64,000 bases of DNA. Origin: Caldichromatium japonicum (GTDB lineage Bacteria > Pseudomonadota > Gammaproteobacteria > Chromatiales > Chromatiaceae). Shown here in pieces: positions 28,012 to 40,536 of this stretch (position 1 is the stretch's first letter; each line of letters opens with the position of its first letter). A program made the position numbers and the translations under genes. The notes beneath the pieces are model-generated. The model saw nothing but the letters and a program-made list of their open reading frames with translations. It ran no database searches and was not told where the DNA came from. Where the stretch lies: positions 1,843,155 through 1,907,154 of the forward strand of contig NZ_CP048029.1 in the NCBI RefSeq assembly GCF_011290485.1, written 5' to 3'.

Positions 28012-31000
28012 CTATACGGTCTCAGGGGGTGAATCTGAGGCGGCGAGCAAGGTACGCGCCTGCTCGACCAGGACCAGGGCGCCCTCAAAGTCGAAATGGC
28101 TGATCTGTCTGGACAATGCGGCATGGATCTCGGGGAGCCGCTTGGCCAATGGGCCAGACTCATGCTGATACAGGGTTAACGCCTGGGCGTTGTCCTCGCA
28201 CAGCAGCTGAGCGAGCCGATCGAGCCAGGCCAGGATCTGATTGGGTGCTACAGACGAACGGGACTCACCGGCCTGAAGCAGGAGCAGGCGCGACTGTTCC
28301 ACCGCACCGCGCAATGCCTCCAAGTCCTCGCGGATCGAGGCGATCGTCGAGGCCAGGGCCTCAGGGTCGGCGAGACCTTCGGGGCGGCGCGTGACCTCCA
28401 ATGCCCGTGCCTGCTCGGCGATCCGCACCAGTCCCAAGGTGGCGGCGACCCCTTTGAGGCTATGGGCAATCCGGGCAAGGGATTCGCCGTCGCGTTTGAT
28501 TAGGGACTCATTGAGCTGCCTCGGATCATTGCCATGCGACTCGATGAAGCGTTCCAGGAGCATGAGATACCCTTCCGGGCTGCCACGTAAGCTGATCAGC
28601 CCCTGACGCAGATCGATACCCGGCAGGACGCGGATGGCAGCCAACAGATCTAGCCGCCGGTTCAATGGACGCGAGGTCTGGGCCAGCCCCCCCGCCCCCC
28701 TCTGCTTGACCTCCCGCCTAACCTCTGGCAATAGCGTTGGGGGTTCGGGCAGCCAGCGCAACAGGGCCTTGAAGAGGTCATGGGGCTCGACCGGCTTGGC
28801 CACGAAGTCGTTCATCCCTGCCTCCAGGCAGGTGCGGCGATCCTCGTCAAAGGCATTGGCAGTCAGCGCCAGGATCGGGCGGTCAGACCATTTGGGCAGG
28901 GTGCGGATGGTGCGGGTGGCCGAAAGCCCATCCATCACCGGCATCTGGACATCCATGAGGATCAGGTCATAGTCCTCGTGGGCAGCCATTTCGACGGCGA
29001 TCTGGCCGTTTTCGGCGGTAGCGACCTGGAGACCGAAGCTTTTCAGCAGCTCCAGGATCACATCGCGGTTGATCGGGTTGTCCTCGGCGAGCAACACCTT
29101 CCGCCCGAGACAACGGGCACGTATCTCGTCCTCGCTGACCTGCTGGGCCGCCTGATCGACATCCTCCTGCGGCTGACCCGGCTTAAGTTTAGCGGTAAAC
29201 CAAAAGGTGCTTCCCTCTCCCTCGCTGCTTATGACGCCGACCTCCCCCCCCATCAGATGTGCGAGTTGGGCGGTGATCGCCAGCCCAAGGCCGGTCCCTC
29301 CATAGCGCCGGGTGATCGAGGTGTCAGCCTGCTCGAAGGCTTGGAACAGCTTGGACTGTTTGTCTGCCGGGATGCCGATCCCGGTGTCCTCGACCTCGAA
29401 ACGAACCAGCAGATGTCCATCATCGAGCCGCTCTCGTAGATGCACACGGATGATGATGTAACCGCTCGGGGTAAACTTGAGGGCATTGCTGGCATAGTTG
29501 AGCAGGGCCTGGCGCAAACGGGTGACATCGCCGCTCACCCAATTGAGCTGGGGATCGAGCTCGATCCTGAGGTGTAACCCTTTGGCGCGCACTTCATCGA
29601 GCACCAAGGAGCTGACCTGATCGAGCAACATGGCGATCGAAAAGTTCTGCTCAGAGAGATTCAGCTTGCCCGCCTCGATCTTGGAGAGGTCGAGGATGTC
29701 ATTGATGACGTTCAATAGGTGACGGGCCGCGTCCTCGATCTTGTCGAGCCGGGCAAGCTGACTAGGGTTGCCCAGTTCGCGCTTGAGCAGATGGGTCAGT
29801 CCGAGGATGGCATTCATCGGGGTGCGGATCTCATGGCTCATATTGGCCAGAAAGGCGCTCTTAGCGCGCATGGCGATTTCAGCCAGCTCAGCGCGTCTTG
29901 CCAGCTCGGCCTCCATCTCGCGTTGCGGTCGGATATCGCGAGCGAAGCCCACGGTCCCCAAGACCTCGCCGCTATCGTCGATGATCGGCGCCTTAAAGAC
30001 CTCATAGAGGGCACAGGGGTTACTCTCACTTTCCATCTCGCGGGTGATCCTCTGGCGACTGGTGATGACCTCGGCGTCCTCTGCGAGATAATAGCCGGCG
30101 CGTCCAGGCCAGAGCTCTTTGTCGGTCAGGCCGATAATCTCTTGGGGCAGGCGTCCCTTGAGCTCGGCAAAAAGGCGGTTGACCGCAACAAACCGCCCCT
30201 CGCGATCCTTCATCCACACAGGGTACGGCAGGTTGTCAAGCAGGGCCTGCAGCGAACGCGTCTGGTGGCGCAGCTCGCGGGTGCGAGCCTCGACCAGTTC
30301 TTCGAGATGATGGCGATACTCCTCAAGCTCGCTGATGAGGCGTTTCTGTTCCGTGATATTGGACTTGACCGCCAGATAATGGGTGATCTTGCCATCGGCT
30401 TGACGGATCGGAGCGATGATCGCCAGCTCGCTATAGAAGGTCCCGTCCTTGCGTTTATTGATAAACTCACCCTGCCATACCTCCCCTGCCAAGAGGCATC
30501 CCCAGAGCCCATCATAGACCTCCGGGGGAGTGAGGCCCGATTGCAGGATCCTTGGGTTTTGCCCGATTACCTCGTCGCGCGTATAGCCTGTGTTCTTGAC
30601 GAATGACTCATTGACATACTCGATACAGGCATCGAGGTCGGTGATGACGATGCTCTCCGGGCTCTGTTCAACGGCAAGCGACAGCTTGATCAAGTCGAAT
30701 TCGATGCGCTTGTTTTCGGTGATATCGCGAAACACCCCGCGCCGTCCCAGATAATGCCCCTCGGTGCTCAAGACCGGATTACAGAGGTGCTCGAGCCAGT
30801 ACTCGCGCCCATCGCGGCTGATCAGACGCAGCTGTAGAGAGACAGGGTCGAGATGATAAGCAGAGATACTCTTGATCTCCTGCAAGTGCTGCTCCCAGAG
30901 CCGACGATCGGCGGGATGGATGAGTTGGCTGACCAGACCTGGATCGGCGATGAAGTCCTGGGCCGAATAACCGGTTATCCCAAGACAGGCCGGCGAAACG

Positions 31001-32139
31001 TAGCGATAGCGGCCATCGGGCCCCATCCAATATTCCCAGTCGCAGCTGTATTCGGCGAGGACCCGATAATGCTCGCGGCTTTCGAGCAGCAATTGGGTAG
31101 TGCGCTGGCGCTCCAGATAGACCGCGATATGGACAGCGATGGCCTCAAGTAGGGACCTTTCCTCGTCGAGGAAGGGGCCCTCGCCGATCCCAGGCGGTGG
31201 CGCCTGGCGATAGGCCACTTCAAGCCTCCCCAGCTGGGTCTCCTCGGTGGGGATCGGGGCTGACGACACCCAGTCGGTTGGCATAAAGCCGGGGGTCTGA
31301 AACACCTGTTCGCCGATCTCGAGACGGGCCTCGGCCAGATCAGGGAACTGGAAGGCCGGCGGCAGGTATTCGATGACCCGTTGGATGACCTCCTCCATCG
31401 GGGCCTCAGTGTGGCTGATCTCGCGCACCACTGCATAAAGCCCCTGCATCTCCTTGAGACGCTCATTAAGCTCGGCCTCGCGATGCCGGAGGCGTTCAGT
31501 GGTCGTTTGGATCTCCTCGCGTTGGCGGACCGCCTCGGTGCGATCGATGACTGCGCACACATAGCAGGTCTCCCCGGCTTCCAGGATCGGGAGGCGCGCA
31601 ATATGGAGATCGGCGATAAACAGCCCACCCTCGCCGTTGCGAAAACGCAGCTCCTCGACAGCCAGACCAGCGGCGGCGGCAGCAGGCAACTCGTCCTTCC
31701 ACAGCCGGGCCAGTCGGTTGTGATCGGTCTCACCGAGCAGACGCATGAAATGATGCTGGTGGAGATGGCGGGACTTCAGCTTAAAAAGGGTCTGCGCCGC
31801 CAGGTTGCCCTCCTGGATCAGACCGTGGCGATCGACCACCAGCGCGGCGATCGGCAAGGCATTAAACAGGGTCGAGAAGCGATCAAGGGCTGCCTGGGTT
31901 TGACGTTGGCTGCGCAGGAGTTCCTCGTTTTGGATCTGCAGCTCTGCCTGATAGATCCTCAGGCTCTCGATGACGGCCGCCAGCTCGACATTGGCCCCCT
32001 GTACGAGCTCATCGGCGAGCTCAAAGCGCCCCTGATGCAGAGCCTCCAGGGCCCGGCTGCGGATATCATTGATCGAGGGGGCAGAGGAGGACGGGGAGGA
32101 GGGAGCAGCCTCGCCGGTCTTATCAGACTGGTCGTCCAT
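28012..32139 (-). CDS. Hybrid sensor histidine kinase with multiple PAS, receiver and Hpt domains
   Basis: A 1375-residue soluble phosphorelay protein. In order: a PAS domain (about 70-190), a coiled coil, a GAF-like region (230-350), three more PAS domains (about 355-470, 480-600 and 630-750), the H-box [11 protein letters not shown] (His about 768), an ATPase domain with [11 protein letters not shown], a receiver domain ([11 protein letters not shown], with Asp in [13 protein letters not shown] about 1060) and an Hpt domain ([13 protein letters not shown], about 1225). All phospho-acceptor residues are present, so the relay looks functional. No membrane segment is seen. It is divergent from a decayed paralog, with an IS5-like element in between. 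Confidence 0.9.
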
Positions 32140-32209
32140 ATTGCTAGTCGAGAAATCCTAAATTGAGAAAGCTTGGTCTGGGGTCCTTGCACTAAGACTA
32201 TAGCCCATT

Positions 32210-33430
32210 GGGCACCTCGAAAAACCTTGATCAGCCCTTTGCCGGAATAAACTTGCCGTCACCTGAATTCCAGCCGACCTGACCGCCATGAAGAAGTGCC
32301 GCGCCATCAAGACGGACCTGTTTGCAGACTGCCAACAGCGGGAGAAGATCGACAAGTTGGGCGATCCATTGGTTGAGATAGAAGGCGCCATCGACTTGGA
32401 AGCCTTGGCGTTGGAAGTTGACCGCATGGCCCCGCGCTCGGTGAGTCTGCAAGGTGGCCGGCCACCGTTCCCCGCTGAAACCATGGTGCGCATTCTGGTC
32501 TTGAAACGCCTGTACAACCTGTCTGACGAGCAGATGGAGTATCAATTGCTGGACCGCATGAGCTACAAGCGCTTCTGTGGTCTGGCCCAAGCCGCCAACA
32601 TTCCTGACCGGACGACTGTGTGGGTGTTTGAGAACCGGATCGGCGAAGCCGGCGCCAAAGCCATCTTCGATGGCCTCAGCGCGCAACTGCTCAAGAAGGG
32701 TTTGATCGCCCGGGGTGGGCAGATCATCGACGCCACGCGGGTAGCGCGCCCCGGCAGCACTTCACCAAGGACGCCAAGGAACCGCTGAACGAAGACGCCA
32801 TGCCCGCGGATTGGAAGCCGGTCAAGCGGCGCCAGAAGCATGGCAAGAGCCACTATGGCTACAAGCTCACGGTGAACGTCGACAAGAGGTACAAATTCAT
32901 CCGCAAGATCGTCACCGACACCACCAGCACCCACGACAGCCAGCACTTTGAGGCGGTCATGGACCCGGCCAACACCAGCCGGGAGGTCTTTGCCGACCGA
33001 GGCTATCCGTGCGAGGAACGAGAAGCCTGGCTGAAAGCGAACGGCTATCGGAACAAGCCGCTGTCTGAAGCGCAGCAGCGGCGCAACCATGGCATTGCGA
33101 AGACACGAGCCTGTGTTGAACATGTGTTTGCGGCCATTGCGCAGATGGGCGGCAAACTGATCCGCACCATTGGTCAAGCGCGTGCCAACTTTGCGATGAC
33201 GATGATGGCGGCCTGCTACAATCTGAAGCGACTGGCGTTCTTCCAGCGAGTGGGCATCGTGCCCGCATAACGCCCAACATGGGCCGAATGGCCACCGCCC
33301 ACTTCGGGGTAAAAACCGGGCAACGCTGCTTGAAAAAGCAGCGATTTGTTGAGGAAGTTGAGCCGGATTCAGTCAGTGGCATCGCGCTTTGACCGGGTCC
33401 CATCAAAATAGTGGGTTATTCGAGGTGCCC
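32210..33430 (+). mobile_element. IS5-family element (frameshifted)
   Basis: Terminal inverted repeats lie at the edges: GGGCACCTCGAAAAACC begins at 32210, and GGGTTATTCGAGGTGCCC ends at 33430 (one mismatch over 17 bases). The inner region holds one transposase split by a frameshift. Flanking CATT and TATT might be a decayed 4-base target duplication. It sits between two divergent hybrid kinase genes. Confidence 0.85.
32288..33270 (+). pseudogene. IS5-family transposase, one frameshift
   Basis: The first frame runs from the ATG at 32288 (MKKCRAIKTDLF) through the first catalytic Asp in GGQIIDATRV. It then shifts at about 32745-32760, in a CGCCCCGG stretch, where the expected sequence (RQHFTKDAKEPLNEDAMPADW) continues in another frame. 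The second part holds the Asp in FADRGY and the Glu in RACVEHVFAAI, so the full DDE set is present across the break. One base restored would give about 327 residues. Confidence 0.85.
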
Positions 33431-33667
33431 TATTAAAATATGATCTATATAAAATTAAGGGGTCTATCTGCCAGGCCGATCCCCTTGTGCGGATCCGTCA
33501 GGGTCGTAAAAGTTCTGTAACACTGCTGCACGACAAGGCCTCAGGGCCCGGCCTAGAGAGGCGGGTGATCATCTTGTAGGACAGGATCTCAAGTCAAGCC
33601 TGGCGCCCGTGCCAGCCGCCTGCTTTGTCAAGGATTTAGTGCTTTTGCCGTCTGCCGAGCCCATCAG

Positions 33668-36600
33668 ATGTCCACGCCCCCCAGACCCCGCCAGCGCTGC
33701 GCTCACCCGCGATCCTGGTCCTCGTCTATGCCGCGCTGGCTGGGCTGTGGATCCTGGCCTCGGACCTGATCCTCGAGCAGCTGTTCAAGGACCCTATTGA
33801 GCTGGCCATCGCCAGCCTGATCAAAGGACTGGGCTTTGTGGCCGTCACTGCCGTCTTGCTCTATCTCCTGCTGCGCACTCAGGAGAGAGGAAGGGCCTCT
33901 TCGGATACCGGGGTGGCCCAGCACCCTGTTCGCCGCTGGTTGCCGTTTCTGGTCCTCTTTCCTGTCATCCTGGCCTTAACCGCGAGCGCCGCCCTCCATA
34001 CCTATGGCTACGAGCGCGATCTGCAGGTGACCAATCTCTTGGCGGCAGTCAGCATCAGACAGAGAGAGCTCGAGGGCTGGCTATGGGAGCGCCAGAAGGA
34101 CGCCAGACTCATTCATACCAGCAGTTATCTTGGCGAGGCCTATCGGTCTTGGCGCCAAGGCGATGCCGAGGCGGGCAGACGGCTGCAGGAATGGCTGAGC
34201 CAATTTATCAGCCCCCACGGCTTTCATGCCATCAGCCTGATCGATCCCCAGGGCCAGACCCTCTGGGCAAGTCCCGAGGCGCCGCCTAGGTTGATCCGGT
34301 ACGTCAGCAGTCATGCAGCCTTGGCGGGCATCGAGGGACGGGTATATCGGATCGGTCCCTATCTGGGACTGCGCGTGACACCGTAGATCGATCTGCTCAG
34401 CCCGCTTGCCCTCCCCGAGGGCGCGCCCGTGGTCGTCTTGCATGCCGATCCCACCCCTTGGCTAGAGGATGAGACCGCAAGCCCTTGGACTGCCAAGAGC
34501 GGCGAGGTCCTGTTGATCGGGGGCGAAGGCCAGCGACTCATGGTCCTCGGCCAGCGGCCCTCCTTGCACACCCAGCCTGTCTGTCGGTATCTCTCGTTGA
34601 CCGACCCCGACTCGCTGGCCCATTGGCTTCAGTCAGCGATCACCAGCCCTGGCCAAATCGTCGAGGGTCGCGATGATCGCGAGCAAAGGGTGCTGGGGAT
34701 CGCCCTACCGGTCGCCGAGACCGACTGGTTTTTGCTGGCCAAGATGGATCATGCCGAACTCATGGCCGGTTTTAGCCAGCGCGCGGTCTGGATCTTCAGC
34801 GGCGGTGGCCTGCTCTTGGTATTGGCCATCACCGTGTTCTCGGCATGGCAACAGCACCAGGTGCTCCTGACCGAGCGGCAACTGGCTGAGGAACGCGAGG
34901 CCTCTCGTCGGCATCTTGAGGAACTGGTCGAGGCGCGCACCCAGGCGCTCCATCATCAAAGTCAGGCACTGCGCGCCCTCATCGATAACCTGCCGCACCC
35001 TGTCTGGATGAAGGATCGCGAGGGACGGTTTCTGGCGGTCAATCGCACCTTCGCCTCTTCCATTGGCCAGACGCCCAAGGCCTTGATCGGTAAGACCGCC
35101 TGGGACCTGTGGCCCGCGAGGGTCGCGGTGCGTTATCAGGACAGCGATGAATGGGTCATCCGCAACCATCAGCCGCTCTTCCTCGAGGAAAGGTTGGGCG
35201 ATGATCCTGATGCGGTGTTCGAGGTCTTCAAGGCACCGATCATCAATGCCCAGGGCGAGATCATCGGGACGGTCGGCTTTGCCCGCGACATCCGGCCCGA
35301 GCGCGCCATTCAGGAGGAGCTGGCAAGACGCGCTGAGCTGGCCGAAAGCGCCATGCGCGCCAAGAGCGCCTTCCTGGCCAACATGAGCTATGAGATCCGC
35401 ACCCCGATGAACGCCATCCTCGGCCTGACCCATCTGCTCAAGGACGATAGGCAGCTCACGGAGGACCAGCTAGATAAGCTCGACAAGATCCAAACCGCCT
35501 CCCAACACCTGCTGATCATCCTGGACGACATCCTGGATCTGGCCAAGATCGAGTCCGGCAAACTGCAGCTGGCCGAGGATAACTTCGCTGTGGTCCCTCT
35601 GCTCGAGAAGGTATGCGCGCTCGTGGCGGATGCAGCCCGGGCCAAGGGGCTCAGTTTGACAGTGGACAACCAAGGTGTCCCTGACTGGCTGCGCGGCGAT
35701 GCAGCGCGCATCCGTCAGATCCTGCTGAACTATCTCAGCAATGCCGTAAAGTTCACCGACCAGGGGTCGATCGTCTTACGTGCCCGGGTCTTGGATGAGG
35801 ACAATACCAGCGTCTTAGTGTGTTTCGAGGTCGAGGATACCGGTATCGGTATCCCGCCGGATCAACTCCCAGAGCTCTTTCAACCATTTACCCAGCTCGA
35901 CAATTCATTGAGCCGCTGTTTCGGTGGAACCGGCCTGGGGCTGACGATCAATCTCCAGCTCGCCAACCTGATGGGCGGGATGGTCGGTGCCGAGAGCCAG
36001 CCCGACATCGGCAGCATCTTCTGGTTTCAGGCGCGTTTCGAGCGCGGACGCTCGCAGCAAGATCCCCCAGCCGCCTTGCTGACCGAGGAACAATTGCGCC
36101 AGCAGTATAGCGGACATCGTCTGCTCCTCGTGGAGGACGATGCCGTCAATCGCGAGGTGATTGCTGAGCTCCTGCGCCGCGGCGGGATAGCGGTCGATCA
36201 GGCGGTCGATGGAGGCCAGGCCATCGAATTGGTCAAGGAATCTCACTATGATGTGATTCTGATGGATATACAGATGCGGGTGATGGATGGTCTAGAGGCA
36301 ACCCGGTGCATCCGCGCCCTGCCCAATGGCGCCAACATCCCGATCTTGGCATTGACGGCGAATAGCTTCGATGAGGATCGCGCCCAATATCAGGCGGCAG
36401 GGCTGAATGACTGCATCGCCAAACCTGTTTCGGCCGAGCGCCTGCTCGAGACGATCGCGCGCTGGTTGCCCCTAAGACCAGCCGAGGCCGAGATGCCCAC
36501 TCTGCCTCAGCCGCCCACTGCCGCTCTAGACGCAGACCCGGATCTAGCCAGACTGCGCAGCGTGCCAGGTCTCGACTGTGCCCAAGGGCTGTCCGCAGTA

Positions 36601-37158
36601 GCAGGTCAGGCTGGGCGGTATCTCGAGCTGCTGCAGCGTTTCGCGCAGACCCATCTGCAAGATCTCCAACGGATACGCACTGCCTTGGAGACAGGGGACC
36701 ACGAAGGTATTAAAGCCCTGGTCCATACCCTCAAGGGTGTGGCAGCAAACCTCGGGGCGACGGCGGTCGCAGAGGCAGCGGCAGCAGTCAATGCCCTGTT
36801 GCGATCCGCGCCTGAGATCTCGGTCGAAAAGCTTTATGCAGCGATCGACCGCCTCGAGCAGACCTTTGCGTCGCTCACTCAGGTCCTGTCCGGACGTGAT
36901 TCCACCTCTGTCCCGCCGCTCCACTCAGGGCAATCATCTGTGACCGAACAAGCAAAGGCGCTATGCGATAACCTGATCGAGCTGTTGCGCTTTAATGATA
37001 CCCGCGCGCTTGCGCTCGCCCGTCAACAACGTGCGCTGCTCATCCTCATCCTTGGTGAGTCCCATGCCCCATTTGAACGCCATCTGGGGGCGTTTGAGTT
37101 CGAGGAAGCCCTCGAGCTGTTGGAAAACGCGCGCTTAGAACAGGGCATACCGAGCTGA
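33668..37158 (+). pseudogene. Decayed hybrid histidine kinase, paralog of the left-hand kinase
   Basis: Layout: membrane segments (VYAALAGLWILA, then LVLFPVILALTASAA), a periplasmic sensor region, a third membrane segment, a PAS domain, histidine-kinase and ATPase domains (DTGIGIPPDQ), a receiver (LLLVEDDAVNRE, LILMDIQM-type) and an Hpt domain (VHTLKGVAANLG). Three lesions are visible. The only good start, ATG 33668, is out of frame with the rest unless one base of a six-C run (33677-33682) is removed. An in-frame TAG lies at 34384-34386. The phospho-acceptor position in NMSYEIRTPMN is Tyr (TAT, 35389-35391) where the paralog has His. The PAS-to-Hpt region strongly resembles the product at 28012-32139. 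Confidence 0.85.
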
Positions 37159-37460: not shown

Positions 37461-37796
37461 CTATTTCTCAGATTTCTGGGCCGATTGGGCAGGGGCAGCA
37501 ACCGTTGGTGCCACTACAACGGGCGCGGCCCCTGGATAGCCCCAGTACCCTGGATAGCCCCAGTACCCTGGATAGCCCCAGTACCCTGGATAGCCCCAGT
37601 ACCCTGGATAGCCCCAGTACCCTGGATAGCCCCAGTACCCTGGGCCCCACCAGTCCCAACCAGGGCCCCACCAGCCGCCGAGCATGGCGCTCATCATGCC
37701 GGCCATCACGCCGAAGAAGGCGTGGGCGGGCAGGGTGGTCAAGGATGCAGAACAAGCAATGATTGCGGCCAGCGCAATGCGTCTGACTGTTGTCAT
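37461..37796 (-). CDS. Secreted Gly/Tyr/Trp repeat protein, candidate sulfur-globule protein
   Basis: An 111-residue protein with a clear signal peptide (cleavage after LPAHA). Its mature part is rich in Gly, Trp, Tyr and Pro and contains six perfect GYWGYP hexapeptides after WWGPGWDWWGP, then a short Ala/Val/Pro tail ending in KSEK. Sulfur-globule envelope proteins of purple sulfur bacteria are small, exported, repetitive and Gly/Tyr-rich, and Sox-dependent sulfur storage is expected here, so this is the best guess. It is an inference from composition, not homology. The ribosome-binding site AGGAGG is well placed before the ATG. No cysteines are seen in the mature part. Confidence 0.65.
   Translation of the reverse strand: MTTVRRIALAAIIACSASLTTLPAHAFFGVMAGMMSAMLGGWWGPGWDWWGPGYWGYPGYWGYPGYWGYPGYWGYPGYWGYPGYWGYPGAAPVVVAPTVAAPAQSAQKSEK
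37531..37638. repeat. 18-bp tandem repeat, six perfect copies
   Basis: Six identical 18-base units (CCTGGATAGCCCCAGTAC) encode the GYWGYP repeats on the minus strand. Perfect DNA identity, including third positions, points to recent expansion or gene-conversion upkeep. Confidence 0.97.
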
Positions 37797-39963: not shown

Positions 39964-40536
39964 ATGCAGAGAAACAGTTTGTATGTTTCCGCCGCCGCCC
40001 TAGCCTTGGCTGTGGGTGTCGGGCTATCTAGCGTTAGCCAGGCCCAGCCGGGCGGCTATGGCAACTATTACCCAGGATCGGGACAAGGGATGAGTCAAGG
40101 CCCAAGTAACCAGGGTCCGGGGCAAGGCCAAGGTGGTGGACAAGGGTACCAGGGTCCGGGGCAGGGCCAAGGTGGTGGACAAGGGTACCAGGGTCCGGGG
40201 CAGGGCCAAGGTGGTGGACAAGGGTACCAGGGTCCGGGGCAGGGCCAAGGTGGTGGACAAGGGTACCAGGGTCCGGGGCAGGGCCAAGGTGGTGGACAAG
40301 GGTACCAGGGTCCGGGGCAGGGCCAAGGTGGTGGACAAGGGTACCAGGGTCAGCAGCCAGGGAATCAGGGCTGGGGTTCTGGTAGCGGGCCGCAGGGGGG
40401 GTATGGGCGTCCTGGACCGCGGAGTCCACGCGATAATGGCTATGGCCCCGGGCCTGGCGGCTATGGTCCACCCCCCCATCCAGGCTTTGGTCCTGGCCTT
40501 GGACCGCGGCCACCCTATCCACCGCCTGGTTACTAA
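39964..40536 (+). CDS. Secreted Gly/Gln-rich tandem-repeat protein
   Basis: A 190-residue protein with a signal peptide (hydrophobic core LYVSAAALALAVGVGLSS, likely cut after SQA). The mature part begins with Tyr/Gly-rich sequence, then six perfect 13-residue repeats GPGQGQGGGQGYQ, then a Pro/Gly/Tyr-rich tail (GYGPPPHPGFGPGLGPRPP). It is low-complexity and probably disordered. No known family is recognised. It could be a second sulfur-globule or cell-envelope structural protein by analogy with the gene at 37461, but Gln-rich repeats are not the classic sulfur-globule pattern. Confidence 0.7.
   Translation: MQRNSLYVSAAALALAVGVGLSSVSQAQPGGYGNYYPGSGQGMSQGPSNQGPGQGQGGGQGYQGPGQGQGGGQGYQGPGQGQGGGQGYQGPGQGQGGGQGYQGPGQGQGGGQGYQGPGQGQGGGQGYQGQQPGNQGWGSGSGPQGGYGRPGPRSPRDNGYGPGPGGYGPPPHPGFGPGLGPRPPYPPPGY
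40114..40347. repeat. 39-bp tandem repeat, six copies
   Basis: Six 39-base units starting at 40114, 40153, 40192, 40231, 40270 and 40309 encode GPGQGQGGGQGYQ. The first differs by one base (CAA for CAG); the others appear identical. All frames stay open through the block, which creates spurious reading frames on both strands. Confidence 0.97.

Follow-up and report, generated by a model that had tools for sequence, protein, structure and literature searches.

A probable, recently inactivated pseudogene of a fast-evolving hybrid histidine kinase, with tyrosine at the phospho-acceptor position, in Caldichromatium japonicum

DivL, a pseudo-histidine kinase of Caulobacter, carries tyrosine at the acceptor position while its other kinase motifs remain recognisable, and, in the portion of the publication available to us, it is described as having neither kinase nor phosphatase activity and as keeping this tyrosine in its alphaproteobacterial homologues, with one exception (PMC4211667). 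Here we describe a gene, hereafter gene B, in a 64,000-nucleotide stretch of the Caldichromatium japonicum genome (the window; NZ_CP048029.1, positions 1,843,155 to 1,907,154), which resembles DivL, as portrayed in that portion of the paper, in having tyrosine in place of the acceptor histidine (PMC4211667). The likeness does not extend much further: by the same partial account DivL is an intact gene with a conserved tyrosine, whereas in gene B the tyrosine occurs in one gene only, the frame is broken, and a receiver (REC) and an Hpt domain are attached (PMC4211667). When gene B is held against the DivL type, the tyrosine is there, but all five aligned B proteins have histidine at this position, and the gene is interrupted by a TAG codon. 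Because the tyrosine is not conserved among orthologues and the frame is broken, we treat gene B as a pseudogene derived from a kinase of known type. Literature searches added little: one on histidine pseudokinases found none, one on hybrid histidine kinase pseudogenes in Chromatiaceae gave nothing relevant as judged by titles and the beginnings of abstracts, and one on Caldichromatium japonicum gave nothing on its genome among the titles returned.

Other close counterparts are the B-type kinases of Allochromatium palmeri (G002, L029), Allochromatium warmingii (G006, L030) and Thiocystis violacea (L031), which share the HisKA-HATPase-REC-Hpt order and are 48-53% identical to the window's B at the protein level. 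In A. palmeri and A. warmingii the gene is also paired divergently with a paralogue, gene A, just as it is in the window. All three have an open frame and the acceptor histidine, while the window's B has the TAG, the tyrosine and a nearest ATG that is out of frame. We conclude that gene B is very probably a recently inactivated pseudogene of a fast-evolving hybrid histidine kinase, most likely an ordinary dying gene whose copies in relatives are intact, and not a new kind of signalling protein. The features of the locus are collected in Table 1.

Table 1. Features of the gene A-gene B locus, in window coordinates.
Feature	Position	Strand	Basis
Gene A, intact divergent paralogue kinase with His	28012..32139	-	Pfam and alignment
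Insertion sequence in A-B intergenic region; DUF772 and DDE_Tnp_1 transposase in two frames	32207..33433	+	Pfam and genome copies
Gene B, disrupted membrane-bound hybrid histidine kinase (probable pseudogene)	33668..37158	+	Alignment to five intact homologues
Six-C run between ATG 33668 and body frame	33677..33682	+	Sequence
GTG, first start codon in gene B body frame, upstream of TAG	33838..33840	+	Sequence
In-frame TAG; column is Arg in 5/5 aligned B homologues	34384..34386	+	Sequence and alignment
909-codon open frame 3' of TAG, first start GTG 34429: remaining sensor, hydrophobic helix, PAS_4, HisKA(Tyr), HATPase_c, REC, Hpt	34429..37158	+	
PAS_4	34984..35304	+	Pfam, E 4.8e-20
HisKA	35359..35559	+	Pfam, E 9.8e-18
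TAT (Tyr) at phospho-acceptor His position	35389..35391	+	H-box NMSYEIRTPMN; His in 14/14 aligned homologues
HATPase_c; N, G1 and G2 motifs can be made out by eye; residues around the F box substituted	35695..36039	+	Pfam and alignment
Receiver; Asp, Thr and Lys of the catalytic site seen on inspection; acceptor Asp followed by Arg in place of Pro	36124..36456	+	Pfam and alignment
Hpt; HTLKG motif present	36625..36855	+	Pfam and inspection

HisKA, HATPase_c, Response_reg and Hpt follow one another in gene B, all four above the Pfam cut-off, as is PAS_4, and paralogue A has the same C-terminal domain order; the segment of gene B that precedes the TAG (33838-34386) has no Pfam match. What sets gene B apart from a hybrid histidine kinase is the H-box itself, where the tyrosine codon TAT at 35389, reported by the initial annotation, is confirmed. 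The in-frame TAG at 34384 is confirmed likewise, and lies in the same frame as the 909-codon open reading frame downstream of it. Codon CAG (Gln) had been expected there as the undamaged state, an expectation that does not hold, as the relatives have arginine in this column.

The protein search covered 55 genomes, including that of C. japonicum itself, and gave matches in 53; among the matches listed, the best ones outside its own genome, those of A. palmeri and A. warmingii, adjoin a divergent A-type kinase, and the divergent pair is also found in Allochromatium humboldtianum (G004, L041) and in genome G001. The B homologues aligned were five, from these four same-genus genomes and T. violacea, the last counted as an orthologue from the tree only, with no A-type neighbour seen beside the gene. 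Together with eight A proteins (the window's included) and one non-orthologous outgroup they form a 14-homologue alignment, in which every B and every A protein has an open frame and histidine in its H-box. When 15 proteins were placed in a tree (595 columns), the window's B nested within the B group, with a support of 86 for its grouping with the four same-genus B proteins and 93 for the whole B group. The comparison with orthologues that the initial annotation had proposed thus bears out its claim of a disrupted gene that has lost its acceptor histidine, the disruption being confined, among the six B proteins compared, to that of the window.

The translation of gene B aligns with intact homologues on both sides of the TAG and as far upstream as the C run, which argues that the lesions are more than chance. 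Measured against the five open homologues its frame is disrupted: no uninterrupted frame runs from sensor to Hpt, as the TAG intervenes and ATG 33668 is also out of frame. A one-base shift in the six-C run had been thought necessary to join the gene to a start codon. That part of the claim which concerns the ATG stands, since ATG 33668 lies one base out of the body frame near the run and its own frame stops after 33 codons; the body frame itself holds no ATG, GTG or TTG before 33838. The need for a shift is nevertheless doubtful, because it arises at or near the run only if ATG 33668 is the start of gene B. The first hydrophobic segment of the frame (ILVLVYAALAGLWIL), just 3' of the C run, aligns with segments of T. 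violacea, G001 and A. humboldtianum, whose B genes have an in-frame Met 5' of it; from the B proteins of A. palmeri and A. warmingii the segment is absent altogether. Since these two intact proteins start later, the 5' shift may be harmless and not a lesion, which would leave the TAG as the single clear frame break, and a gene started at GTG 33838 could yield a protein of similar extent to those of the relatives. As it stands, no full-length kinase should be expected, for any upstream start would terminate at the TAG.

Besides the lesions, gene B has departed unusually far from its family. Scoring each sequence at the columns invariant in the remaining 14, we find the window's B changed at 26/177 columns and its neighbour, paralogue A, at 3/154 (Fisher P 2e-5). 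All 13 A and B proteins apart from the window's B show 0 to 6 departures per 151 to 157 invariant columns, a count that is low by construction for proteins that have a near relative among those aligned (e.g. G001 and A. humboldtianum), and the non-orthologous outgroup 24/175. Terminal branch lengths tell the same story (0.88 for B and 0.20 for A). Gene B is more weakly constrained than its homologues and its neighbouring paralogue, as a pseudogene would be, a pattern that a changed function could give as well.

The scarcity of stop codons bears on the timing. One stop in 1159 codons limits unconstrained evolution to approximately 149-166 substitutions (0.043-0.048 per site, 95%), and none in the 909 codons 3' of the TAG limits neutral change there to approximately 94-105 substitutions (0.034-0.038 per site), both bounds taken from a Poisson count with a nonsense fraction of 2.9-3.2%. 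In its 595-column core B has ~135 more replacements than expected from A, a rough figure derived from approximate root-to-tip averages and a lineage factor (1.78) obtained from paralogue A; if neutral, this excess predicts 5.3-6.5 stops, and none is present (P 0.0016-0.0048). There are too few stops for all of the acceleration to be neutral, so the fast divergence probably came before the loss of the frame. Differences from A. palmeri B by codon position (0.343, 0.272 and 0.570 at positions 1, 2 and 3) are least at the second and most at the third, which indicates that much of the divergence took place while the frame was being translated. Judged from the sequence, the break is recent, and the part of the acceleration that seems to have occurred under translation might reflect a changed function. 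The open 909-codon frame, the catalytic residues, all of those inspected being legible save the histidine, and an excess of divergence seemingly too large to be all neutral are to be counted against the pseudogene reading.

Gene B has also decayed in one other relative and may be missing from two more. In sister genome G005 the slot between A and the neighbouring gene, which we take to be HDOD, is occupied by two fragments of B that lie in different frames (L048:1474-2257); residues ~475-974 (numbered as in A. humboldtianum) and the greater part of the sensor have been lost, the kinase core is gone between the fragments, and the adjacent A is intact. No B was found beside A of G007 in the 11 kb searched around A. 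In G003, a genome given as 91% complete, the contig that carries A is 9420 bases long and ends close to the gene, which leaves the locus incomplete. When residues 1-566 of A. palmeri B were searched against these three genomes, a sensor match at the locus was seen only in G005, with no clear B sensor match in G007 or G003; the other matches were to a different G005 kinase (residues 63-566, 32%) and weak ones of 26% in G003 (E 7e-5) and G007 (E 6e-4). Disrupted kinase genes are no rarity among these genomes: counted by eye, 10 of the ~150 match rows among the matches listed carry an internal stop.

Tyrosine at the acceptor position was seen in none of the relatives examined, only in the window's B. 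With a degenerate pattern (Met, a WSN codon, Tyr, Glu-Ile-Arg-Thr-Pro), which demands these exact neighbours and so misses tyrosine in otherwise changed H-boxes, one of 369 sampled genomes of the class and one of 146 of the family gave a match, gene B itself both times, and the histidine form of the same pattern was matched in 201/369 of the class genomes. The two samples share a few genomes, and G003 and G007 are in neither.

The insertion sequence between the two kinase genes is present in the genome in six copies that share 98-100% identity over the full or nearly full length, alongside two copies that are partial and a single distant match; no clear target duplication was visible by eye at the flanks of the window copy. 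It may have separated gene B from its promoter. A scan of positions 32100-34500 gave one promoter site (shuffle mean 0.7) and one terminator (shuffle mean 1.8). Within the A-B pair of each of four relatives (L043, L044, L045 and L046) HisKA, HATPase and REC are 66-80% identical and Hpt 36-42%, a combination of similar core and dissimilar Hpt that might be due to gene conversion between the two genes. Two short-repeat genes lie further downstream in the window: one at 37530-37650, on the minus strand, where an 18-bp tandem repeat encodes YPGYWG repeats, and an ORF at 39964-40536 whose repeats are rich in glycine and glutamine (GPGQGQGGGQGYQ).

An error of sequencing or assembly could in principle account for the broken frame: the TAG, and perhaps the count of the six-C run, would then be a consensus error, and the organism would have an open, fast-evolving B, with or without the tyrosine. 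An error at the TAG alone would suffice for an open frame from GTG 33838. However, the genome is a single contig of 99.97% completeness, its 25 HisKA matches have no internal stop, and the B protein around the TAG is itself degenerate at the invariant columns described above, while the tyrosine needs a second error or a separate explanation. We regard an error as unlikely.

A functional pseudokinase made from an internal start (e.g. GTG 34429) is a still more doubtful proposition. Such a product would be a membrane-bound PAS-HisKA(Tyr)-HATPase-REC-Hpt protein, unable to autophosphorylate on a HisKA histidine, which would use its receiver and Hpt to sense or drain phosphoryl groups from A or a different relay. 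The stop-free 909 codons and the acceleration partly under translation speak for it, as do the catalytic residues of both domains, and DivL, in the published portion cited, is a precedent for tyrosine at the acceptor site (PMC4211667). Against it, columns invariant in the other B proteins are changed in the window's B about as often after the TAG (98/371; for the five homologues, 2 to 37 of 275 to 310) as before it (10/36; 0 to 15 of 26 to 41), while three of the five homologues (A. palmeri, A. warmingii and T. violacea) keep the later part clearly better. Nor is the tyrosine common to any relative examined, and B is a relic in G005 and has no clear match in G007 or G003. The fuller version, that B became a pseudokinase before or despite the frame break and that its 909-residue tyrosine product would bind partner relays as a phosphoryl sink or as a sensor for paralogue A, seems to us highly improbable; if true, it would make pseudokinase B a gammaproteobacterial counterpart of DivL with its own REC and Hpt.

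The initial annotation had judged that the receiver and Hpt parts look intact. This is so for the phosphotransfer residues, which are present by inspection, their roles being presumed here; the receiver as a whole is strongly diverged, at 50-55% identity to three B homologues (the A and B receivers inside each of four other genomes are 72-75% identical). Its suggestion that a surviving downstream product could take part in phosphotransfer finds no support, given this divergence, the columns changed after the TAG, and the state of B in G005, G007 and G003.

Three further readings were rejected: amber suppression of the TAG, as ARAGORN read no CTA anticodon among the tRNAs at the genome's 48 Rfam tRNA matches (run in two batches, 30 and 17, and confined to those matches); a conserved programmed frameshift at the six-C run, which none of the five B homologues needs; and a long-dead pseudogene, ruled out by the bound that a single stop in 1159 codons sets on neutral divergence.

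Returning to the recently inactivated pseudogene, we propose the following course. The intact ancestor of B would have been a sensor in the membrane that carried a PAS-HisKA-HATPase-REC-Hpt relay; its gene would have adjoined paralogue A in divergent orientation, and the two proteins probably functioned side by side. In the window's lineage B would first have diverged fast with its frame still kept, as the scarce stops suggest; the frame would then have been lost through the TAG, and perhaps through the 5' shift too. The phospho-acceptor would have gone by a change of His to Tyr, before or after the loss of the frame, and B may have been severed from its promoter by the insertion sequence that lies between the two genes.

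For annotation, the lesson is that a striking change in a kinase active site can read as decay once homologues are compared. The locus also offers a case in which at least two species of one genus of purple sulfur bacteria have lost a member of a divergent kinase pair, with rapid divergence seemingly preceding the loss of the frame.
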